A DNA stretch of 64,000 nt from Geminocystis sp. NIES-3708 (lineage in GTDB: Bacteria; Cyanobacteriota; Cyanobacteriia; Cyanobacteriales; Cyanobacteriaceae). This document shows positions 8,833 to 22,846 of this stretch, piece by piece. The stretch covers positions 3,533,656-3,597,655 of the forward strand of contig NZ_AP014815.1 in NCBI RefSeq assembly GCF_001548095.1, read 5' to 3'. The position numbers were made by a program, and so were the translations under genes. Numbering within the stretch: the first letter of the stretch is position 1; each line of letters starts with the position of its first letter. The notes under the pieces were generated by a model that worked only from the letters and a program-made list of their open reading frames with translations, was not told the DNA's origin and ran no database searches.

Positions 8833-10434
8833 TTAACTAATATTACAATCCATAGTTCTAGATATGAGAGTATAAATTCCTCTTTCTAATAATCCTGACA
8901 TGGCGACGGAAGGTAAATGTCCTTGAGGTGCTTTTATGTTATAAATTAGTATATCTTGAAATAACCATGTTCCATTTATTCTCCATCCTAAACGATCGCC
9001 AACAACTTCCCAAACTTTTTTATCATATTCTCGTTTCCCACCTAAACTGAGATAGATGCGTTTTTGTACCGAAAAACCAAATTTACCATTGCTATATTTT
9101 GTCCATAATTGATCTATGGTTTGTAAGTCTCGACAAGGAAAAGTACGCATTAAATCCTTATTTATCCAACCAGAATCTTGTCTTTGTAATGCTTTTAACA
9201 TCAATTGATGAGTTTCTTCGTCAGCTTTTTGCCATTGTTGATTTTTTAATAACTCCTCTAAATGATCATAATTGACTCCGACTTCTGAAAGACAAATAAT
9301 TGAATCCGATTCAGAAATGGTTTCAGGAGAAGAGACTTGTGTCGGTACATTAGAATTAGTTAAATTCGGCTCAATAATTGAGATTTTTTGAGGAATAACC
9401 GTTGACTTTTGATCTTCAAATCGATGGGGAGAAAGAGGATCATAACGATAATCATTATCTGATATTACCTTCGGTATTTTTGTAACTTTTCTTACTTTTC
9501 TCGTCACAGGCACAGGAGGCACAGGCATTATTGGTAAGTTATTAACGGGAGTTTTTGGGGGAGAATTGACAGGAGGATTTTCTTCTTTTTTTTCTGAGAC
9601 AGAAAGATTAATTTGACTATTTTCCGTTAACATATTTAACCATTGAGCTACGGATTGAGGACGGTTTTCTGATTCTAATTCCATACCCTTAAGAATAGCT
9701 AAATTAGTGCGATCGCTTATTTTAGAATTATGTTGCTGAGGAGGAATTAAACTAATGCCTTGACTACGAAATTGAGCGGGAAAAGGAATTTGTAAAGTTA
9801 AAATATAATATAAAGTAGCCGCAAGAGCATAAACATCAGTATAAGCTCCTCTTTTAGCATTTCTTAAATATTGTTCTAACGGTGCAAAACCTTCTGTACG
9901 AGAATTGGTATGAATTTGGGTTTTATCTTCAATAAAATCTCGTGCTAAACCAAAATCAATTAAAACTGCATCATTAGTCTGACGACGACGCATAATGTTA
10001 GCTGGTTTAACATCACGATGTAAAATTCCTTGCTTATGAATATAACTTAATGCACTACCTACTTGATAAATATAACGTATAGCTTCTACTTCTTCTAAAC
10101 CACCTTTTTTTTTGACTAAAGATTCTAAATTACCACCATCAATATATTCCATTACCATGCACCACAATTCTTTCTCTTGGCAGACATCATCAACTTGAAT
10201 TACATGAGGATGATTACATTTAGCTAAACGAAAAGCCTCTTGAATAAACCTTTCTTGGTGTTTAGAAAAATCTGGTTGTGCCTGAATAGTGGCATTTAAA
10301 GTTTTAATCGCCACAAGATTACCTGTTTGAACATCTTTAGCACCATAAGTAATACCTGCACCTCCAGCACCTAAAACTTTCTCAATCACATACTTTCCCT
10401 TCTGGATAATCCGTCCTGTTTTCCAATAACTCAT
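8833..10434 (-). CDS. Serine/threonine protein kinase fused to a GUN4 domain
   Basis: A 533-residue cytoplasmic protein. Residues 15-275 form a Hanks-type kinase with a Gly loop at 22-30, the ATP Lys K44, the catalytic H139-R-D141 motif, and DFG at 160-162; all key residues are present. A Pro/Val/Lys-rich linker (about 280-380) follows. The C-terminal part (about 385-530) is a GUN4 domain, marked by LLKNQQWQKADEET, SGWINKD and the GKFGFSVQKRIY segment. GUN4 binds porphyrins and stimulates Mg-chelatase, so the fusion may link tetrapyrrole status to phosphorylation. Such fusions are known in cyanobacteria, though their substrates are mostly unknown. There is no membrane segment. Confidence 0.92.
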   Translation of the reverse strand: MSYWKTGRIIQKGKYVIEKVLGAGGAGITYGAKDVQTGNLVAIKTLNATIQAQPDFSKHQERFIQEAFRLAKCNHPHVIQVDDVCQEKELWCMVMEYIDGGNLESLVKKKGGLEEVEAIRYIYQVGSALSYIHKQGILHRDVKPANIMRRRQTNDAVLIDFGLARDFIEDKTQIHTNSRTEGFAPLEQYLRNAKRGAYTDVYALAATLYYILTLQIPFPAQFRSQGISLIPPQQHNSKISDRTNLAILKGMELESENRPQSVAQWLNMLTENSQINLSVSEKKEENPPVNSPPKTPVNNLPIMPVPPVPVTRKVRKVTKIPKVISDNDYRYDPLSPHRFEDQKSTVIPQKISIIEPNLTNSNVPTQVSSPETISESDSIICLSEVGVNYDHLEELLKNQQWQKADEETHQLMLKALQRQDSGWINKDLMRTFPCRDLQTIDQLWTKYSNGKFGFSVQKRIYLSLGGKREYDKKVWEVVGDRLGWRINGTWLFQDILIYNIKAPQGHLPSVAMSGLLERGIYTLISRTMDCNIS

Positions 10435-11066: not shown

Positions 11067-12017
11067 TTAGGCGGCAAGAGGCAAATGTATTTGATAAGGT
11101 GATGATGACAAATCGTCTTGAATTAATTCCCTAAAATTATTGATAATAAAAGAACAACGATTAAAATATTCTTTTACCCATTGACGATACCATTTTAGTT
11201 GAAAATCATCAATATAATTGAATTTTGAACCTAGGTATATAACGTTACCATAATTATCGACTTGAAATTTATTTAACCAGTCGTTTTCTAGCTTAGAGGA
11301 ATGTAGATATTTTACTACTAGATTTACCCCTAAATATTTTTGACTACATTTGCTAAGGTAGTTAATCGCTTTTAAGACATCTTCGATGGTGAAGTTATTC
11401 AATTCAACAGAAATCATACCCATTAATTGAGGGTTAAATTTGGTATCAAAAATCGTCTTATGATTATATTTTGCTTCTCTAAAGTAAGTTTTATAAATAA
11501 TAGCAGAAGTTAAGCAAGTACCTAACATACTTGATTCTGATAGATATGCTTCTGTTAAATTAACTCCCGTAAGGAAAGCGTTTTGAAATTCTGTTCTCTT
11601 TAAATTACTGTAAGATAAATCAGAATTATTTAGTGAACTCTGGGTAAAATTTGCACCACTTAAATAAGCCTTTTGTAGATTAACATTATTAAGATATGCC
11701 TGACGAAAATTCGCTTTTCTACCATGAATACCTGAAAGGTTAGCTTTATTCAATTTACTGTAACTTAAATCACTATCATCAATAATCGCATTTGTTAAAT
11801 TTGCACCTGTAAGATTTGCACCCTTTAAATTGCATTTACTGAGATTAGCATCGGTTAAATTGGCATTTTCTAAATTCGCAAAACTTAAGTCACTATTTTT
11901 TAAATTTGCTTGTGCCAAATTAATACCTTTTAAATTTGCTTTGGAGAAATTGTGCTGATGAAAATTTCTTTCTCCTAAGAGGTAACGTTGATTTATTTCT
12001 GTAAAAAAGTCACTCAT
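11067..12017 (-). CDS. Pentapeptide-repeat protein with unique C-terminal domain
   Basis: A 316-residue protein. Roughly residues 20-165 are tandem pentapeptides of the A(D/N)Lxx type (ANLKG, ANLSG, SDLSY and others), which fold into a right-handed beta helix. The last 130 residues do not repeat; they are Tyr/Asn/Lys-rich and unknown to me. There is no signal or membrane segment, so the product is probably cytoplasmic. An in-frame TTG at 12032 would add five residues. I prefer the ATG at 12017 because GAGG lies nine bases upstream of it. Function cannot be given; pentapeptide proteins are numerous in cyanobacteria and mostly uncharacterised. Confidence 0.87.
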   Translation of the reverse strand: MSDFFTEINQRYLLGERNFHQHNFSKANLKGINLAQANLKNSDLSFANLENANLTDANLSKCNLKGANLTGANLTNAIIDDSDLSYSKLNKANLSGIHGRKANFRQAYLNNVNLQKAYLSGANFTQSSLNNSDLSYSNLKRTEFQNAFLTGVNLTEAYLSESSMLGTCLTSAIIYKTYFREAKYNHKTIFDTKFNPQLMGMISVELNNFTIEDVLKAINYLSKCSQKYLGVNLVVKYLHSSKLENDWLNKFQVDNYGNVIYLGSKFNYIDDFQLKWYRQWVKEYFNRCSFIINNFRELIQDDLSSSPYQIHLPLAA

Positions 12018-12212
12018 AGACTTATACCTCAACCATTGAATGGTTATCGTTATTTTTAAGTATGAATATAAAGTAAGAATGTGGAGATTTTGTGGAGACT
12101 ATTTTAATAGGTAATAATTCTTTATATTTTCTATGTCATAAGACTAATTTATTTTTGTTAATTGTTATTTAGATAACATTTTAAATATTTATGAATAAAT
12201 GAGTAATTATAC

Positions 12213-13337
12213 TTAATTTATTGGAATAGTAAAAAAAAAAGTTGAACCGTTGTTCAAAGATGATTCTACCCAAATTTTACCGCCATTATGATCTATTATT
12301 TTTTTACAGGTGGCTAAACCAATACCAATACCATCATATTTTTTGTCTGTTTCAATTCTCTCTAACATTTTAAATATTTTCTGATGATTTTCTGGCTTGA
12401 TACCGATACCATTATCTTTGACACTAAATAGTAATTCTGTTTTTGATTTTTTGATTGAGATGGTTATTTCTGGCTGACAATTATCAGGAATATATTTGAT
12501 TCCATTACTGATTAAATTTTGAAATATTTGTGTTAATTGAATAGGATTATAAGTAACATTTATAGGACTTCGACTTTCTTCAATATTTAATTTAATAATT
12601 GCTTCTGATTCTTCTATTTGTTGTGTTAATAAATCTAAAACATTATCAATTATTTCTATACAGTTAATGACTTCTTTTTCTTCTTTATTTTTTTCAATTT
12701 GTGCATAAGATAGTAAAGTATTGATTAATTGATTCATTGCATAACTAGAATTTAAAATCAAATTTAAGAGATATAATGATTGTTCTTTTAAATTTTCTTT
12801 TTCTAAATGTAAAACTAATTGGCTACTCCCTAAAATAGTTTGTAATGGTTGTTTTAAATCATGGGAAACAATATGTGCATAATTTTCTAATTCTCGATTA
12901 GATGCTGATAATTTTTGATTGAGAATTTTGATTTCTTTTAACTTTTGTTTTCTTTCAATAGCATATCGTATGGCTCTTTGTAAATTATCTAAATTAATCT
13001 CTCCTTTAATCAAATAATCTTGCGCACCTTCTCTTACAGATGAGATTGCCATATCTTCATCATCTAAACCTGTTAAAATTAGTATAGGAATATCATTACT
13101 ATAAAAGTGAATAGTTTTTACTGTATCTAAATTATGACTATCAGGCAAAGATAAATCCAATAAAATAACATCAAAGAAATTACTTTTAAGGTGAAAAATG
13201 GCATCTCTACAGGTTAAAACATGAGTTAAATCTATTTTGAGAGAATGTAATTTTTGAAATTGTTTTTTGATAATAATAACATCAGCTAAATTATCTTCTA
13301 CAAGGAGAATATGAAGGTGAGTTAAAGAAGAAACCAT
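12213..13337 (-). CDS. Receiver-histidine kinase hybrid
   Basis: A 374-residue soluble signalling protein. The N-terminal receiver (8-125) has acidic D15, phospho-acceptor D61 and K111. A short coiled coil (about 125-150) leads to a HisKA domain with phospho-His H159 in IVSHDLKQP. The HATPase domain shows the N box, G1 (DNGIGI) and G2 (GIGIGLA) motifs. The receiver before the kinase suggests that phosphorylation from a partner sets kinase activity. It is the last of three co-directional genes, 22 bp after the Rcp1-like receiver, which itself follows the ETR1-type kinase. An upstream in-frame TTG (13355) is possible; I used the first ATG. Confidence 0.9.
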   Translation of the reverse strand: MVSSLTHLHILLVEDNLADVIIIKKQFQKLHSLKIDLTHVLTCRDAIFHLKSNFFDVILLDLSLPDSHNLDTVKTIHFYSNDIPILILTGLDDEDMAISSVREGAQDYLIKGEINLDNLQRAIRYAIERKQKLKEIKILNQKLSASNRELENYAHIVSHDLKQPLQTILGSSQLVLHLEKENLKEQSLYLLNLILNSSYAMNQLINTLLSYAQIEKNKEEKEVINCIEIIDNVLDLLTQQIEESEAIIKLNIEESRSPINVTYNPIQLTQIFQNLISNGIKYIPDNCQPEITISIKKSKTELLFSVKDNGIGIKPENHQKIFKMLERIETDKKYDGIGIGLATCKKIIDHNGGKIWVESSLNNGSTFFFTIPIN

Positions 13338-13359
13338 ATGGTATAAACAACTCAAAGTA

Positions 13360-13794
13360 TTAGTTTAAGGGATAACGGACAAATTTAAACCAAAAATTAT
13401 CGATAGCTTCCATACATTGATAAAACTCTTTTAAATCTATCGGTTTAGTTAAATAAGAGTTCGCATAATAGTTATAACATTCTACAATATCTTTATTATT
13501 TTCCGAAGTACTTAAAATAATTACGGGAATAGCTTTAAATTTAAGATCTGATTTAATTTCTTTTAAAACTTCTAAACCATTTTTTTGAGGTAAATTCAAG
13601 TCTAATAATATCAAATCAGGACGAGGTTTTTGTTCATATTCTCCTTCTTGATGTAGAAAATTCATCGCTTCAATGCCATTGTTAACTACATAAAGATTTT
13701 TAGGAGTTGTAGTTTGCTTAAGAATTTTTTTCATTAAAACTACATCAGCTAAAGAATCTTCTGCCAATAAAATTTCTACTGGTTTTGAAAACAT
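13360..13794 (-). CDS. Single-domain response regulator, Rcp1-like
   Basis: A 144-residue lone receiver with E12/D13, phospho-acceptor D65 and K117. The long beta4-alpha4 stretch (STSENNKDIVECYNYYAN) and the SYLTKPIDLKEF end match the Rcp1 subgroup, which are partners of cyanobacterial phytochromes and related kinases. It has no output domain, so it probably shuttles phosphate or acts by binding. It lies 8 bp after the ETR1-type kinase and 22 bp before the receiver-kinase hybrid. Both flanking kinases are candidate partners, giving a possible phosphorelay. Confidence 0.93.
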   Translation of the reverse strand: MFSKPVEILLAEDSLADVVLMKKILKQTTTPKNLYVVNNGIEAMNFLHQEGEYEQKPRPDLILLDLNLPQKNGLEVLKEIKSDLKFKAIPVIILSTSENNKDIVECYNYYANSYLTKPIDLKEFYQCMEAIDNFWFKFVRYPLN

Positions 13795-13802
13795 TTATTG
13801 TA

Positions 13803-15530
13803 TTAATGAATTTCAGTATATTTTGGGATTGTAAAAAAAAATTTTGAGCCTTTTTCTATCTCTGATTGTACCCAAATTTTACCGCCATGACGAGTAACAA
13901 TTTTTTGACATAATGCTAAACCAATACCTGTACCTTCATATTGATCACTGGAATATAATCGTTGAAACACTATAAAAATTTTTTCCTGAAATTTTACAGG
14001 GATACCAATTCCATTATCTTCAACACAAAATAGCCATTCATTTTGTAATGATTCTACTGTTATATTAATTATAATAGGTTTATTACTATGAAATTTTAGG
14101 GCATTACTAATTAAATTTTGCCATAATTGAGTTATTTGAAACTTATCTCCCATAATATGTGGTAATTTTTGATAAATAATTTTTGCTTTTTTTTCTTCCA
14201 TAGAAATCTGAAAAATATCTAATACCTCTTCAATAATTTGGTTACAATTTAACAAAATAAATTCTTTTCCTTTTGTTTGTATTCTTGATAAAGCTAATAA
14301 ATCTTTAATTAGCTGTTTCATTCGATGAGAAGCTGAGATAATAAACTGTAAATATTGCTTTCCTTCTTCGTTAATTTTATGTCCATATTCCTCTATAAAT
14401 AACTCAGAAAAACTGGTGATAATTCTTAGTGGTTCTTGAAGATCATGAGACGCTACATAAGCAAACTGTTCTAATTCTTGATTAGATCTTTGTAATTCAA
14501 TATTCCATGTTTTTAAATCTTTTTGCATATCATAAGTTTCTATCGCTTTAATAAATATTTCAGCTATTAATTTGACAAAAATTAGGTCAACTTGTTGCCA
14601 TTGTTTGATATTTTGAAAAGAAGTTAACATTAAAAATCCGTGACAATTATTTTCATAAATTAAAGGCACTGCTAAAATAGATTTAATCTGATTATTGTTA
14701 ATATATGATTCTTTTGATAAACAATATTCATCTTCATTAATTAGATCATTAATTTTTAAAAATTCCAACTTATTCATTATTTTTACAATCACACAAAGAT
14801 CACATTTTAAATCAATCATGTTAATATTATTGCCATAAAAAAATTGAGTTTTAGTTATTTGATGACTATTATCAGTTATAAATAAAAAACAATGATCGAT
14901 AGATAAAGTATCATAAATAGCTTTTAAAGAAAGATTAAACTTTTCATTTATATCTCCATAATCAACTTTAATAAATAAATTAGAAATATAAGTAACTAAT
15001 TTTTCTAATTTAATTTTATAATTTAATCTATTGTTAATAATTTCTATTTCTGAAGTTCTTTGTTTAACCCTTACTTCTAGTTCTTGATTTAATTTTTTTA
15101 ATTGTAATTCTGTTTCTTTTTTTTCTTTAATTTTTATCTCTAAATTTTGATTAAGAATAGCTAATTTTTCAGGAGTTGGTAAAACTAAAGCTAGAGGAAT
15201 AATTGTTAATAATTCAAAAGCAGTTAAAACAGAAATTATTGCAGTTAAAATCTTAATAAAACCTGATAACCAATAAATAGGATACCATAGAGTAATAATT
15301 GCTATAAGATGAGTTAAACCACAAAAAAGAATAAAAGCACTAAATAATATAAAAATTTTGTTAAAAGGAATATCTTTCTTTTCATGAACAAAATAAATTA
15401 ACATTAAAGGAATAGAAAAATAAGCCAAAAAAATAAATAAATCTGAGAATAAATGTACCCAGATTAAAGACGGTTGCCACAAATAACAATGGCCATGGGG
15501 AATATAATAATTAGATAACAAAATATTCAT
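13803..15530 (-). CDS. ETR1-type ethylene-receptor histidine kinase with GAF domain
   Basis: A 575-residue membrane sensor kinase. Residues 20-115 hold three membrane helices of the ethylene-binding domain. All the key ETR1 residues I compared are kept with a constant shift of five: D30, Y37, I40, P41, I67, and the copper ligands C70 and H74. A coiled coil (about 122-175), a GAF domain (about 180-335), HisKA (H362 in VASHDLQEP) and HATPase (DNGIGIP, GTGIGLA) follow. The Synechocystis homologue Slr1212 binds ethylene and is also the light sensor UirS. Here there is no PAS domain, and the GAF has a Cys (C270) near the bilin position but no following His. It is the first gene of a three-gene operon and divergent from a DNA-binding regulator. 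Confidence 0.93.
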   Translation of the reverse strand: MNILLSNYYIPHGHCYLWQPSLIWVHLFSDLFIFLAYFSIPLMLIYFVHEKKDIPFNKIFILFSAFILFCGLTHLIAIITLWYPIYWLSGFIKILTAIISVLTAFELLTIIPLALVLPTPEKLAILNQNLEIKIKEKKETELQLKKLNQELEVRVKQRTSEIEIINNRLNYKIKLEKLVTYISNLFIKVDYGDINEKFNLSLKAIYDTLSIDHCFLFITDNSHQITKTQFFYGNNINMIDLKCDLCVIVKIMNKLEFLKINDLINEDEYCLSKESYINNNQIKSILAVPLIYENNCHGFLMLTSFQNIKQWQQVDLIFVKLIAEIFIKAIETYDMQKDLKTWNIELQRSNQELEQFAYVASHDLQEPLRIITSFSELFIEEYGHKINEEGKQYLQFIISASHRMKQLIKDLLALSRIQTKGKEFILLNCNQIIEEVLDIFQISMEEKKAKIIYQKLPHIMGDKFQITQLWQNLISNALKFHSNKPIIINITVESLQNEWLFCVEDNGIGIPVKFQEKIFIVFQRLYSSDQYEGTGIGLALCQKIVTRHGGKIWVQSEIEKGSKFFFTIPKYTEIH

Positions 15531-15654
15531 TAATATTCATTAATAAAAATAAGATTGTAAAGATAAGTTAAGTATTCATTTTTTTTTCATTAACAGATAA
15601 TAGGATAAGAATTGTATCCCTAAGTACATAAAAATTAATCTACTTTAATGGAAA

Positions 15655-17550
15655 ATGAAGATTATACTAGTGGAAGATGATCAAAGATTTGGAAAACTAA
15701 TTAAAGATTATCTCATTACAGAATCAGAAAAAATTGATTTAGTCAATACAGGAATTAATATTAGAGATAAATTAGATCAAGGAAGTTATGACATTCTTAT
15801 TTTAGATGTAATGTTACCCGAAAAAAACGGTATTGATATTTGTCGAGAATTAAGAGCCACAAATATTAATCTCCCAATATTATTTATTACTGCTTTAAAT
15901 AATCAAATTGATAAAATTAAAGCTTTTGAATCTGGTGCTGATGATTATTTAATCAAGCCTTTTGACTTTCAAGAATTATTAGCTAGAATAAAAGCCCTTG
16001 TAAGACGAGAAAAAAAAATAAAATCAACAACAAATTTAACATGGCAAAACTTAGTCATGATTCTTGAAGAAAAACAAGTTAAATATGGAGATAATTATTT
16101 ACATTTAACTCCCACAGAATATAAAATTTTAGAGATTTTTTTAACAACACCTCAAAAAGTTTTTAATACAGATAATATTATTGATCAATTGTGGGATATT
16201 GATACTATACCTACTAATAATACACTAAGAACTCATATAAAATCTCTCAGGAAAAAATTAACTGACGTAGGATTAGATAAGGATTTCATTGAAACACTTT
16301 ATGGTATGGGTTATAGACTTAAACCCTTGAATAATAAGTCAGATAAAAATATCATAAAAAAATCATCTTCATTAATTAATTATTTTCAAAATAACCAACT
16401 AACTAAAAATCAATCAGATATTAATAAACAAGAAAAATTACAATTGTTAATTGAACAAATGTGGTTAGAAAATCAAGAAAACGTTAGCCAAGATTGTCAA
16501 AAGTTACTTGATTATATACACAGTAAAAATAATTTAAAAATTGATGATGCTATTCGTACAGTTCATAATTTTGTTGGTTTTCTAGGCAGTATTGGTTATA
16601 TAAATGCTAGTAATATTTCTAAGAAAATTGAAGTTTTATTAAAAAATAATTATCCTCACGTTAAAGATCAAAAAAATATTATAAAAATAACAAATTTAAT
16701 TCATGAGTTAGAAAAAGAATTATTCCCAGAAGGAAGACAAAATTATGACAAAAAAGATCAAGAATTATTTAATCAACAAAAAGTTGAAATATTAGTTATT
16801 GATGAAGATCAAAAATTAGCTAATCAATTAATTATGTTTATCGAAAATCCTCAAGTTTCTCTGAGTTTTTGTCATAGTATTTTATCTGCTCAAAACTATT
16901 TAAATGAGAAAACTTATGATGTAGTTATTTTAGAGACTCAATGGAAAAACAATTCTGATAGAGAAAACTCTATTTTAAATTTATTAGGGGAGAAAAAAAA
17001 AGAAACTAAAATTATTATTTATAGTAAAGATGATAGCTTAGAAAACAGATTATATTGTTCAAAATATCCTATTAATGCTTTTTTAAGTAAAAATAACTCT
17101 CTTGAAATATTATGGGAAAACATCAAAAGTGCCTTAATTCAAAATCACTCTAATTCTATAGTTAATTCCCTCTATAATATTTTGATTATCGATGATGATG
17201 TAAGATTTACTTCAATTTTAAAACAAAAATTAATTATTAATCAATTACCTCTTAATATTAATATAATTTCCGAAAGCGAAACTTTTTTAGATGAAATAAA
17301 AAAAATAAAACCACAATTAATAATTCTCGATTTAGAAATGCCAAAACTAAATGGTTTAGATATATGTAAAATTATCAAAAAAGATCCTTTATTACAATCT
17401 ATTCCTGTTATTTTTTTAACCAGTAATTTAGCTTCAAATATTATTAATCAATTCCTCGAAGCTGGAGCAGATGACTTTATCAGTAAATCCAAAATTGATT
17501 TAGAATTATATCCCAGAATTTTAACTCATCTCCAAGGATATAAATTATAA
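15655..17550 (+). CDS. Multi-domain OmpR-type regulator: REC-wHTH-HPt-REC-REC
   Basis: A 631-residue protein. Order: receiver (1-118; D8, D9, phospho-acceptor D51, K101); OmpR-type winged helix (about 125-225, ending LYGMGYRL); HPt-like helical domain (about 258-356, likely phospho-His H304 in TVHNFVG); a degenerate receiver (about 376-495) with Glu427 in place of the phospho-Asp; and an intact receiver (about 506-630; D559, K611). It can thus bind DNA and also relay phosphate within itself. Similar proteins in cyanobacteria are labelled multi-component transcriptional regulators. It is divergent, by 124 bp, from the ETR1-type kinase operon, so it is a plausible output for that pathway; no direct evidence is visible. 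Confidence 0.9.
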   Translation: MKIILVEDDQRFGKLIKDYLITESEKIDLVNTGINIRDKLDQGSYDILILDVMLPEKNGIDICRELRATNINLPILFITALNNQIDKIKAFESGADDYLIKPFDFQELLARIKALVRREKKIKSTTNLTWQNLVMILEEKQVKYGDNYLHLTPTEYKILEIFLTTPQKVFNTDNIIDQLWDIDTIPTNNTLRTHIKSLRKKLTDVGLDKDFIETLYGMGYRLKPLNNKSDKNIIKKSSSLINYFQNNQLTKNQSDINKQEKLQLLIEQMWLENQENVSQDCQKLLDYIHSKNNLKIDDAIRTVHNFVGFLGSIGYINASNISKKIEVLLKNNYPHVKDQKNIIKITNLIHELEKELFPEGRQNYDKKDQELFNQQKVEILVIDEDQKLANQLIMFIENPQVSLSFCHSILSAQNYLNEKTYDVVILETQWKNNSDRENSILNLLGEKKKETKIIIYSKDDSLENRLYCSKYPINAFLSKNNSLEILWENIKSALIQNHSNSIVNSLYNILIIDDDVRFTSILKQKLIINQLPLNINIISESETFLDEIKKIKPQLIILDLEMPKLNGLDICKIIKKDPLLQSIPVIFLTSNLASNIINQFLEAGADDFISKSKIDLELYPRILTHLQGYKL

Positions 17551-17876
17551 ATATACCTTTAAACATCTTCAAAATATAGTTTATTTAAGATAGAAAATTA
17601 TAAATTTAAATAACTATTACTTATTGGCTATTTCCCGAATTTTCCTAAAATTATAATAGGGTTTAATTAGATAATTACAGATTTTTAACAAAAAATAATA
17701 TACAGAAATCCGATGATAATTGCGAAATTTTTAAATGTGTTAGGTATTAGGCATTAGCTTTTAAAGATTATTAAGATTTATATCTTGATTTTCTAATCTT
17801 TAATTATTTACACATGATTTAAAATTGCTATATAGATTCAAAATAACCAAAAATCATTTTATGATCAAAAGAAAAT
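17551..17876. other. Intergenic gap, no feature seen
   Basis: 326 bp, strongly A+T-rich, between the multi-domain regulator and the lone receiver. I see no open frame of interest, hairpin with a T run, or known RNA. Confidence 0.5.
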
Positions 17877-18266
17877 ATGAAAAATATAAAATTAATTAAT
17901 ATTAGTAAAGTTTTAGTTATTGATGATAATAAAGAAATTCAAAAATTAATAAAAATATCTTTAGAAATGATGAGAAAATGGGAAGTTTTCACCGCTAATT
18001 CAGGATTAGAAGGACTAAAAATAGCTAAACAATTACAAAATTTAGATTTAATACTTTTAGACTATCTAATGCCTGAAATTAATGGAGGAGAAATTATTAT
18101 CAAGTTGCGAAAAGATAAAAAAGTTTGTCATATTCCAGTCATATTTTTAACTGCTCAATCGGACACACAATTTGACTGGCAAGGATTAGGTGCATTAGGA
18201 GTTATTTATAAACCATTTAATCCTATTACTATCGTAGATTTAATTGAAAAAATCTTAATCAATTAG
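17877..18266 (+). CDS. Single-domain response regulator
   Basis: A 129-residue receiver with the D16-D17 acidic pair, phospho-acceptor D62 (LILLDYLMPE), the T92 switch residue and K112. There is no output domain. The alpha4-beta5 region (DTQFDWQGLGALGVIYKPF) resembles cyanobacterial CheY-like receivers attached to large kinases. It has its own unit, 326 bp after the multi-domain regulator on the same strand. The partner kinase is unknown, and the nearby ETR1-type and hybrid kinases are candidates only by position. Confidence 0.9.
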   Translation: MKNIKLINISKVLVIDDNKEIQKLIKISLEMMRKWEVFTANSGLEGLKIAKQLQNLDLILLDYLMPEINGGEIIIKLRKDKKVCHIPVIFLTAQSDTQFDWQGLGALGVIYKPFNPITIVDLIEKILIN

Positions 18267-18346: not shown

Positions 18347-20041
18347 ATGTTAGCAAAACTATATCCTAATATTATAGAGAATGTCAGTGAATGGAATCCC
18401 CAATTATTCCGAGAAGTCAAAGGTAGATTAACACCAAAAACCATTACGATTGTTTCTTTAGCTTCCATTGTCGGACAATTTTTACTATACCTATACTTTC
18501 AAGGAATATTACCTAAAACAGAAGGGAATTATAGTCGTTATTGTACCGCCATAGCCGAACCAGAATTATCCTATTCATCAAATTTTCGCATTTGTAATCA
18601 AGATTTATTAGGCAATTTACAAATCATTAAAGAATTATGGTGGTTAGATTTATTTACGACGATGAGTATCATGGGGGTTTTCATCCTTCTGGTGGTTGGT
18701 AGTTATATGCTAATGGCGGATGTCTCCAAAGAAAATAGCAAAAATACCCTTAATTTTATTCGCCTAACTCCTCAATCAGCCTTTACCATCTTTGGAGGAA
18801 AAATATTAGGAGTGCCTATTTTAGTTTATTTATTCGGTGTATTAGCAATGCCCTTACACTTAATGGCTGGAATAAAAGCTAATGTCTCTTTTCCTTTAAT
18901 TATTGGTTTTTATCTTGCATTAGCCGTAAGTTGTTTCTTTTTTTATAGTGCTTGTTTACTATTTAGTTTAGTTTCTAGTGGCTTAGGAAATTTTCAAGCA
19001 TGGTTAGGAAGCATGGCAATTTTCTTCTTTTTATGTACCATGACAGGAGCAATCATGGAAGCTAACAAATTTAGTAGCACTTCTATCGATTGGATTATTC
19101 TTTTCAACCCTATCATCTTCTTACCCTACTTAGTAAAATCAACATTTCTCTCTCCTGATACCATCGGTTACTTATCCATAGAAACCCTAAATAATCTTAA
19201 TTGGTATGGTAATTTTTGGTGGCAAAATAGCATTGTTAGTTTATTCTTAATAATCTCCAATTACGCAATTTGGACATTTTGGTTATGGCAAGGAATCAAA
19301 CGCCGTTTTCATAATCCTTCTGATACCATTCTTACAAAATATCATAGCTATTTAATTTCTGCTTGTTTTATTGTTTTCAATGTTGGATTTAGCTTACAAG
19401 AAATAAACTCTTATTCTTCCCCCAATGAAAAACTGATTGGCTTACAAGTATTTAACTTTTTTTTCTTCTCACTACTAATTATTGCTTTAACTCCTCATCG
19501 TCAAAGTTTACAAGATTGGTCACGTTTTCGTCACGAAAATTCTTCTCATAATCGTCTAATTCATGAATTACTTTTAGGAGAAAAAAGTCCTTCACCATTA
19601 GCCATTGCCGTCAATGTAGGCATCGTCACTTTATATACCATTCCCACCGTTTTAATTTTTCCTTTTAAAGATAATAAAACATCCATTTTAATGGGATTAT
19701 TATTAAGTGCTACCATAACAATAATCTATGCAACAGTATTTCAATTACTATTGATGCTGAAAAGTCAAAAAAGAACTTTAATCGCCAGTGGTGTTGTTAG
19801 TAGCTTGATTTTTAGCCCATTTTTAGCCTTAATTATATCCCCTGAAAATCATCATAATTACCCTTTTATTTGGCTATTTTCAGCTTTTCCTTTAGTCGCC
19901 ACCACTGAAATAAGTATTTTTTCAACGATGGGAATTTTATTAGCTCACATCACCGCAATCGTCAGTATTAACTATCAATTTAACAAAGTTTTAAACAAAG
20001 CAGGAATTTCCGAAACAAAAATTTTGTTAGAAACTAATTAG
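18347..20041 (+). CDS. Multi-pass membrane protein, ABC-2 permease-like
   Basis: A 564-residue integral membrane protein with about 12 hydrophobic segments in two halves and a short cytoplasmic N-terminus (WNPQLFREVKGRLTPK). The loop after the second segment (ENSKNTLNFIRLTPQSAFTIFGGKILGVP) resembles the coupling region of ABC-2-type permeases of cyanobacteria. No ATPase gene is adjacent, so the transported substrate and partner are unknown. Translation starts at an ATG nine bases after a strong AGGAGAG. It ends just before a palindromic repeat that may act as a terminator. Confidence 0.72.
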   Translation: MLAKLYPNIIENVSEWNPQLFREVKGRLTPKTITIVSLASIVGQFLLYLYFQGILPKTEGNYSRYCTAIAEPELSYSSNFRICNQDLLGNLQIIKELWWLDLFTTMSIMGVFILLVVGSYMLMADVSKENSKNTLNFIRLTPQSAFTIFGGKILGVPILVYLFGVLAMPLHLMAGIKANVSFPLIIGFYLALAVSCFFFYSACLLFSLVSSGLGNFQAWLGSMAIFFFLCTMTGAIMEANKFSSTSIDWIILFNPIIFLPYLVKSTFLSPDTIGYLSIETLNNLNWYGNFWWQNSIVSLFLIISNYAIWTFWLWQGIKRRFHNPSDTILTKYHSYLISACFIVFNVGFSLQEINSYSSPNEKLIGLQVFNFFFFSLLIIALTPHRQSLQDWSRFRHENSSHNRLIHELLLGEKSPSPLAIAVNVGIVTLYTIPTVLIFPFKDNKTSILMGLLLSATITIIYATVFQLLLMLKSQKRTLIASGVVSSLIFSPFLALIISPENHHNYPFIWLFSAFPLVATTEISIFSTMGILLAHITAIVSINYQFNKVLNKAGISETKILLETN

Positions 20042-20220: not shown

Positions 20221-21630
<1,410 letters not shown>

Positions 21631-21658
21631 AGTGGGTATTGCCAACAATACTTAGTAT

Positions 21659-21792
21659 AGGGTAGGCATTCCTTAGAAGTATTTGAAAATATTTCTGCCC
21701 CTGACAAATAATTCTACAAAGAATCATTTATGACTCTCAGATTATCAAGCATAAACTATAAAATTATAGGTAAAGGTAGCAATGCCTACCCT
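21659..21792. repeat. Inverted repeat (MITE-like) between crtP and crtB
   Basis: Perfect 12-bp arms: AGGGTAGGCATT at 21659-21670 and its complement at 21781-21792, with 110 bp between. A related GTGGGTATTGCC stands just left, at 21633-21644. This looks like a small non-autonomous element or a pair of palindromic repeats of the GGGTAGGCATTGCC kind common in cyanobacteria. No protein is encoded inside. Confidence 0.6.
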
Positions 21793-21916
21793 ACTTTTAT
21801 CTTATTTTGTCTTTAATTAGTGATAAAAATGGATCATAAAGTGAGACAATACTGTAGAATCGTCATTATTCTTATTTTTAAACTTATATTTAGCTAACTA
21901 TATTCAGCAGGGATGA

Positions 21917-22846
21917 ATGCTGCAACTGCATAAAAAATTACAACCTAAACAACCCTTAGCCACCCCAGAAGAATCTTATGAATACTGTCGTCAAGTGACA
22001 GCAAAGTATTCTAAAACTTTCTATTTAGGCACTTTATTAATGCCGAAAGAAAAAAGATGTGCTATCTGGGCAATATATGTCTGGTGTCGCCGTACAGATG
22101 AATTAGTTGATGGTCCTCAAGCAAAATTGACTACTCCTGAAACCCTTGATTTGTGGGAACAACAGTTAGAATCAGTATTTGCAGGGCAACCTATCGATGA
22201 TCCTGATGTAGCATTAGTAGATACTCTCAAACGTTTTCCTATGGATATTCAGCCCTTTAGAGATATGATAGCGGGGCAAAGAATGGATTTATATCGTAAC
22301 CGTTATGAAACTTTTGAGGATTTAAAACTTTACTGTTACCGAGTTGCTGGGACAGTAGGCTTGATGTCATCTTCTGTACTGGGAATTGATGAAAGTTATT
22401 TAAACGCCCCTTGGTATAATAATTCAGTCTATATTCCTGAAAAAGAAGCCATTGCACTGGGTATTGCTAATCAATTAACCAATATTCTTCGAGATGTAGG
22501 AGAAGACACGGGCAGAAATCGCATCTATTTACCTTTAGAAGACTTAGCAAGGTTTAACTATACCGAAGAAGACTTATTTAATGGGGTAGTTGATGATCGT
22601 TGGTGTAACTTAATGCAATTCCAAATCAATCGTGCTAAGGAATATTACGAATCAGCTGAAAGTGGAATAAAAGCACTAAATCCTGATGGACGTTGGCCTG
22701 TGTGGTCGGCTTTAATGCTATATCAGGGTATTCTTGATGTTATTGTGAAAAATAACTATGACGTATTTAATCGACGTGCATTTGTACCAACTTCCCACAA
22801 AATGCTTTATTTACCCGTAGCATGGTTAAGAGCTCAAGTTTTATAA
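21917..22846 (+). CDS. crtB: Phytoene synthase
   Basis: Condenses two geranylgeranyl diphosphates to 15-cis-phytoene, the first committed step of carotenoid synthesis. The 309-residue protein has both Asp-rich Mg-diphosphate motifs: DELVD within WCRRTDELVDGP, and D-VGED in NILRDVGEDTGRNRIYLP. The conserved start of the fold, YSKTFYLGTLLMP, is also present. It follows crtP, which uses its product. The ATG at 21917 has the weak purine stretch CAGGG upstream. It is convergent with nadA. Confidence 0.97.
   Translation: MLQLHKKLQPKQPLATPEESYEYCRQVTAKYSKTFYLGTLLMPKEKRCAIWAIYVWCRRTDELVDGPQAKLTTPETLDLWEQQLESVFAGQPIDDPDVALVDTLKRFPMDIQPFRDMIAGQRMDLYRNRYETFEDLKLYCYRVAGTVGLMSSSVLGIDESYLNAPWYNNSVYIPEKEAIALGIANQLTNILRDVGEDTGRNRIYLPLEDLARFNYTEEDLFNGVVDDRWCNLMQFQINRAKEYYESAESGIKALNPDGRWPVWSALMLYQGILDVIVKNNYDVFNRRAFVPTSHKMLYLPVAWLRAQVL

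Follow-up and report, generated by a model that had tools for sequence, protein, structure and literature searches.

Downstream partners of bacterial ethylene receptors have been worked out in few species, and a locus of the cyanobacterium Geminocystis sp. NIES-3708 raises the question of where such a receptor might send its signal when its neighbours encode a small receiver, a hybrid kinase and a multi-receiver DNA-binding regulator. The locus lies in a stretch of 64,000 nucleotides (hereafter the window; contig 1, positions 3533656-3597655 of a 4.04 Mb genome), in which an operon for an ETR1-type receptor histidine kinase, an Rcp1-type receiver and a receiver-histidine kinase (REC-kinase) is divergent from the gene for an RcaC-like regulator. 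Our answer, to which we give a probability of roughly 0.5, is that these genes encode an Rcp1-coupled ethylene-receptor two-component module that has been joined, in this lineage, to the RcaC-like regulator. Six open reading frames were confirmed at their coordinates by a check of the open reading frame list, and the parts on which the argument turns are as follows (REC, receiver; wHTH, winged helix-turn-helix; HPt, histidine phosphotransfer).

13803..15530, minus strand: ETR1-type receptor histidine kinase, 575 residues, with ETR1_N at residues 22-115, GAF at 195-326, HisKA with H362 and HATPase to 570 (Pfam, over cut-off)
15186..15467, minus strand: ETR1_N three-helix domain of that receptor, with D30, Y37, I40, P41, I67, C70 and H74 (127 bits)
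13360..13794, minus strand: Rcp1-type single-domain receiver, 144 residues, acceptor D65 (Pfam receiver; match to PDB 1jlk)
12213..13355, minus strand: REC-HisKA-HATPase kinase, 380 residues from a TTG start, with D67 and H165 (Pfam, over cut-off)
15531..15654, no strand: divergent intergenic region between receptor and regulator, 124 nucleotides
15655..17550, plus strand: RcaC-like regulator, 631 residues, REC1 (D51), wHTH, HPt (H304), REC2 (E427, apparently degenerate), REC3 (D559) (Pfam, three receivers and an OmpR-type wHTH)
16459..16713, plus strand: HPt segment of the regulator, residues 269-353, with H304 (supported by relatives; E 0.055 for the window alone)

Anatomy and spacing are read directly from the sequence: the receptor and Rcp1 genes are separated by 8 nucleotides and the Rcp1 and REC-kinase genes by 4, in keeping with the shared operon described in a first-pass annotation of this DNA. 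That annotation had also recognized the receptor, which is very probably real as judged from its sequence. Its ETR1_N domain scored 127 bits against a Pfam cut-off of 27 (E 3.5e-37), is the single occurrence in the host genome by genome-wide search, and keeps all seven ethylene residues, each at the constant offset of five noted earlier from its ETR1 counterpart, which we take to be D25, Y32, I35, P36, I62, C65 and H69. A chance likeness is ruled out by that score together with the seven residues. In ETR1 the seven residues are required for ethylene binding (PMC6682694), and the copper site is formed by Asp25, Cys65 and His69 (PMC12643061). The full set is also present in G145, G392, G386, G387, G388 and G056 (G and L numbers are our handles for genomes and loci). 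The kinase portion appears intact by sequence, with H362, N and G boxes, and both HisKA and HATPase_c over cut-off. Hydrophobic helices lie within residues 22-126, and a single-sequence structure model of the membrane domain places helices at 20-49, 56-116 and 120-134, with a predicted local distance difference test score (pLDDT) of 73.5 and a predicted template modelling score of 0.39, too weak for site geometry.

The association of this receptor with Rcp1 carries the first part of our reading. The 144-residue receiver matches the solved Rcp1 structure (PDB 1jlk) at E 3.3e-39 over residues 4-142. We compared 15 genomes of the family, for which all p-values are from Fisher tests uncorrected for relatedness, and found ETR1_N in 8 and a close Rcp1 in 9; close Rcp1 was present in 8 of 8 genomes with the receptor domain vs 1 of 7 without it (8/0/1/6, p 0.0014). 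The one exception, G390, was scored as having no receptor by the Pfam search and has a kinase with a degenerate N-terminus. "Close" here means at least 54% identity for Rcp1 and at least 50% for the REC-kinase, cut-offs that were chosen after inspecting the lists; G393 has weaker matches (Rcp1 42%, REC-kinase 33%), and at a search cut-off of E 1e-20 its Rcp1 match counts, giving 2 of 7 genomes without the receptor domain, points that weigh against our reading. Two members of the window's own genus, G187 and G391, are without an intact receptor, Rcp1 and REC-kinase, and G187 retains a broken receptor N-terminal piece 69 nucleotides from its regulator. The reading frame of this stub (L162:10839-12071) runs on into an unrelated protein that looks like a thiamine-phosphate synthase.

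Outside the family, the best ETR1_N kinase relatives among the loci compared (L108, L086, L080 and L043; 44-50% identity) each adjoin an Rcp1-like gene (4 of 4), and the ranking of these Rcp1-like neighbours, which are in turn the top Rcp1 matches, follows that of the kinases. Three of these loci (L108, L086 and L080) continue with a REC-kinase; over 122 residues, its receiver shares 44-46% identity with that of the window. Inheritance of receptor and Rcp1 together is thus well supported by comparison of the sequences.

In itself such a receptor is nothing unusual among cyanobacteria: ETR1_N was found in at least 90 of the 386 cyanobacterial genomes searched, and all seven ethylene residues are kept in 95 of the 106 ETR1_N proteins examined. 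At the same cut-off it was found in none of 14 control genomes among the candidates scored. Up to 12 candidates were scored per genome (up to 5 or 6 in a second survey), and the tallies are lower bounds because only part of the candidates was scored in many genomes. The 106 proteins come from 102 loci, namely 100 neighbourhoods chosen among the survey matches listed, the window and L164, some of which end at contig ends; their neighbours were typed with home-made profiles. The next gene on the strand encodes a receiver-containing protein in 48 cases and a REC-kinase in 21, and the series of receptor, receiver and REC-kinase occurs at 4 of these proteins.

The most useful by-product of the comparison is a pair of sister-genus genomes whose kinases have lost the copper ligands. 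At the seven positions G151 (L184) reads N-Y-I-T-V-S-Y and G390 (L234) reads N-Y-I-S-V-S-Y, which amounts to D30N, C70S and H74Y, and yet kinase, Rcp1 and REC-kinase are still found together in both. In AtETR1, change of C65 or D25 abolishes ethylene binding (PMC11819568). Given that result and the loss of these ligands, the G151 and G390 kinases should, by prediction, be ethylene-blind and could serve as natural controls; the module may then be able to respond to some other input or to run without any. Together with the decayed receptor of G187 and the module-free G391, these close relatives offer a means of testing ethylene dependence, partner choice and output.

On the other side of the intergenic region, the regulator has the order REC-wHTH-HPt-REC-REC and so bears out the divergent five-domain DNA-binding protein proposed earlier. 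All 15 of the 15 aligned relatives keep H304 in the HPt and D559 in the third receiver. In the middle receiver the acceptor is E427, and glutamate stands there in G145, G187 and G151 as well; of 11 more distant relatives, 9 have D and the other two N and S. This middle receiver is probably degenerate or in a fixed state. The HPt of the window's regulator falls below the Pfam cut-off (14.2 bits, E 0.055) and is matched at E<=1 in all 15 aligned relatives (best 5.8e-11); a structure model of the segment (pLDDT 43) is unusable. The proposed phosphorylation sites H362, D65, H304 and D559 stand, and that of the REC-kinase is D67 from the TTG start, the D61 given before having been counted from the next methionine.

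We call the regulator RcaC-like on the basis of domain order and published descriptions, and we take RcaC also to contain an HPt, with sites D51, H316 and D576. Regulators of the same architecture often adjoin a small receiver and a kinase that contains a GAF domain (e.g. L167, L168, L172 and L173). A contig scan with generic receiver patterns gave at least 80 loci, most of them with unrelated receivers, and none of these entered the comparison. In a tree of 28 regulators, which includes no named RcaC sequence and whose clades differ in amino-acid make-up, the family's regulators form their own clade (100/100) on a long branch, and the other receptor-linked regulators (G360; G191 with G024) fall outside it. 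The label "receptor-linked" requires 4 changes on this tree, at least 3 of them forced by well-supported branches, and a single change sufficed in 0% of 200 bootstrap trees.

Whether receptor and regulator belong to one circuit is the second part of our reading, for which the chances appear slightly below even. The divergent pair is retained in G145 and G392, although contiguity in G392 is only inferred because the contig break falls inside the receptor gene: one contig carries the receptor N-terminus divergent from the regulator, and a second carries the receptor C-terminus, Rcp1, REC-kinase and pentapeptide gene in the window order. An RcaC-like regulator also lies within three genes of an ETR1_N kinase in G360, G191 and G024, outside the window's clade. 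A receptor-to-regulator link is plausible.

Several results weigh against such a link, and some of them favour an account in which two separate modules happen to be adjacent, the receptor and Rcp1 (with or without the REC-kinase) having their output elsewhere and the regulator answering another kinase and controlling its own neighbours. Over the 15 family genomes, presence of the receptor and of the regulator is independent (5/3/4/3, p 1.0). The regulator occurs without the receptor in G187, G391 and G393, where the homologue (L217) is broken by a TAG stop in a genome that is 67% complete, and receptor and Rcp1 occur without the regulator in G056, G386 and G388. G145 has Rcp1 and REC-kinase together, more than one megabase from its receptor. 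This, and the independent coming and going of receptor and regulator in the family, weaken the first-pass picture of one fixed unit. Among the 106 ETR1_N proteins, an RcaC-like regulator lies within three genes of just 5, and a single receiver of at most 180 residues is the next gene in just 9. L boxes, scored with up to two mismatches, number 13 in the 64-kb window vs 9.54 +/- 3.08 expected, which is no excess, and none falls in 15531-15654; nor did comparison with G145, G187, G391 and G392 yield a conserved operator in the intergenic region. A direct repeat of the window, ATTCATTAAT, had been a candidate operator and was dropped because it is not found in any of these four genomes. A promoter scan was uninformative (63 sites vs 61.2 +/- 8.2 in shuffles, 0 terminators).

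The separate-module account also draws on the remaining genes of the locus, of which the pentapeptide gene begins 180 nucleotides downstream of the REC-kinase gene and the second receiver gene 326 nucleotides after the regulator gene:

11067..12032, minus strand: pentapeptide-repeat protein (Pfam)
17877..18266, plus strand: single-domain receiver, 129 residues, D62 (Pfam)
18347..20041, plus strand: membrane protein, 564 residues, ABC-2-permease-like through its G151 homologue (weak, below cut-off)

The regulator's remaining neighbours recur in some of the relatives. The 129-residue receiver adjoins it also in G145, G187, G151 and G390, and was not found in the examined stretch after the regulator in G391 and G392; the membrane protein follows in the window, G151, G390 and G391. 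In G392 the pentapeptide gene adjoins the REC-kinase. In G151 and G390 it adjoins the regulator, which is grouped there with the receiver and membrane-protein genes too and lies away from the set of kinase, Rcp1 and REC-kinase. Cytochrome b561-type genes are found near the regulator at L032:12977-13690 (G145) and L163:3260-3973 (G151). Both these and the ABC-2-like membrane-protein genes are possible targets of the regulator. Rcp1-type receivers often act by protein contact, and a receptor-Rcp1 pair might in that case have its output elsewhere. We regard two separate modules as possible rather than probable, since the divergent arrangement recurs in the window, G145 and G392 and adjacency is found separately in G360, G191 and G024. 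Elsewhere in the window, a GUN4 domain fused to a Ser/Thr protein kinase is encoded at 8833-10434.

Under the Rcp1-coupled reading, joined to the regulator, the ligand and each transfer are predictions. Cu(I) held by D30, C70 and H74 in the three-helix membrane domain would very likely bind ethylene. Phosphorylation of H362 by the kinase itself, and passage of the phosphoryl group to D65 of Rcp1, is also likely in view of the co-inheritance of the two proteins. From D65 the group would most likely pass to H304 of the HPt and thence to D51 or D559 of the regulator, setting DNA binding, as in the RcaE-RcaF-RcaC relay, with the REC-kinase acting as a side input or as a bridge. As for the direction of control, the example of Synechocystis, in which ethylene negatively regulates the receptor (PMC7700396) and acts opposite to light (PMC6508509), suggests that binding may alter, and probably lowers, the activity of the kinase. 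The full proposal, of a gas-hormone receptor plugged into a four-step phosphorelay of chromatic-acclimation type (H362 > D65 > H304 > D51/D559), with RcaC-like regulators having come to neighbour ETR1_N kinases more than once in cyanobacteria and a sister genus running a copper-less, ethylene-blind version, is put forward tentatively, and we would not expect all of it to hold.

The first-pass annotation had instead placed the hybrid kinase in a linear order, from receptor to Rcp1 to hybrid kinase to regulator. Phosphate on a receiver aspartate is not normally passed to the aspartate of another receiver, which makes the proposed transfer between Rcp1 and the hybrid kinase's receiver doubtful; transfer from Rcp1 to H304, or a branch in which the receptor phosphorylates D67 of the REC-kinase, is more likely. 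Close to the earlier order is a scheme in which the receptor would phosphorylate D67 and so gate H165, H165 would phosphorylate the regulator, and Rcp1 would be a sink or modulator. Of the 6 genomes that have Rcp1 as well as the regulator, 5 contain a close REC-kinase, against 0 of the 9 others (p 0.002), as expected if it bridges the two; its restriction to genomes with both modules also tells against their being separate and speaks for the earlier order, which is weakened but retains this much in its favour. The gene follows Rcp1 by 4 nucleotides in the window and shares its operon in G392, G151 and G390. However, the 15 genomes are related and the pattern was noticed afterwards; G387, with Rcp1 and a distant regulator, has no close REC-kinase; and a direct handover from the Rcp1 aspartate to that of the REC-kinase is not expected. 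This scheme seems to us rather unlikely.

A role of the receptor chiefly in light (UV-A) sensing, like that of UirS (Slr1212), which has an N-terminus of this type and whose GAF domain perceives light (PMC3546692, PMC7700396), is very improbable, because the UirS GAF has two conserved cysteines (PMC3546692) and an alignment with relatives finds no conserved chromophore cysteine in the GAF of the window's receptor. G145 has N and G392 has S in place of the single cysteine of the motif EYCLSKES, and there is no Cys-His pair. This cysteine lies near what we take to be the usual chromophore position of GAF domains. UV-A sensing, raised in the first-pass annotation, and bilin sensing are rejected for want of the conserved cysteine.

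How far does the locus depart from systems already described? Its neighbours are, as had been claimed, unlike those of SynEtr1/UirS, which is also a photoreceptor and signals to the AraC-type and PatA-type regulators Slr1213/Slr1214 (PMC3546692). The window's receptor shares with SynEtr1 an ETR1_N membrane domain, a GAF, a histidine kinase and neighbouring response regulators (PMC6508509, PMC3546692), but has no GAF cysteine site, and its partners are Rcp1, the REC-kinase and the RcaC-like regulator. Geitlerinema GeiEtr1 has the same domain order, with an ethylene-binding domain, GAF and kinase, no receiver and all seven residues, whereas the gene grouped with it encodes a lycopene cyclase (PMC6682694). 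Phytoene-desaturase-like and phytoene-synthase genes lie downstream of our locus on the same strand (window 20221-22846) and recall that arrangement, possibly by coincidence.

The downstream wiring had been suggested as possibly new, but there are precedents for its elements. In Azospirillum, the AzoEtr1 receptor kinase is followed directly by an overlapping gene for a single-domain receiver of 135 residues, AzoRR-etr1; it has PAS in place of GAF, and the accessible portion of that report mentions neither a REC-kinase nor an RcaC-like regulator (PMC11819568). In the literature seen, mainly outside subscription journals, no ethylene receptor is linked with Rcp1 or with a regulator of RcaC type, which is weak evidence of absence. 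The wiring would therefore seem to vary known designs and not to be of a new kind, the sequence comparisons supporting the Rcp1 pairing well and the join with the regulator less so.

The nearest precedents for the relay itself are light-responsive. Cph1-Rcp1 and RfpA-RfpC-RfpB pair a phytochrome-type kinase with an Rcp1-type receiver, to which Rfp adds a receiver-wHTH-receiver regulator (PMC4390838); these are light sensors and have no ETR1_N. Type III chromatic acclimation comes closer, with a sensor kinase (RcaE), a small CheY-like protein (RcaF) and a winged-helix regulator with three CheY-like receivers (RcaC), in which RcaE phosphorylates RcaC via RcaF (PMC4390838, PMC8256508). There the sensor is a bilin photoreceptor, whereas in the window it is an ETR1_N protein and L boxes were not found in excess. 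If the link to the regulator is true, ethylene and light-colour signalling would share one relay design.

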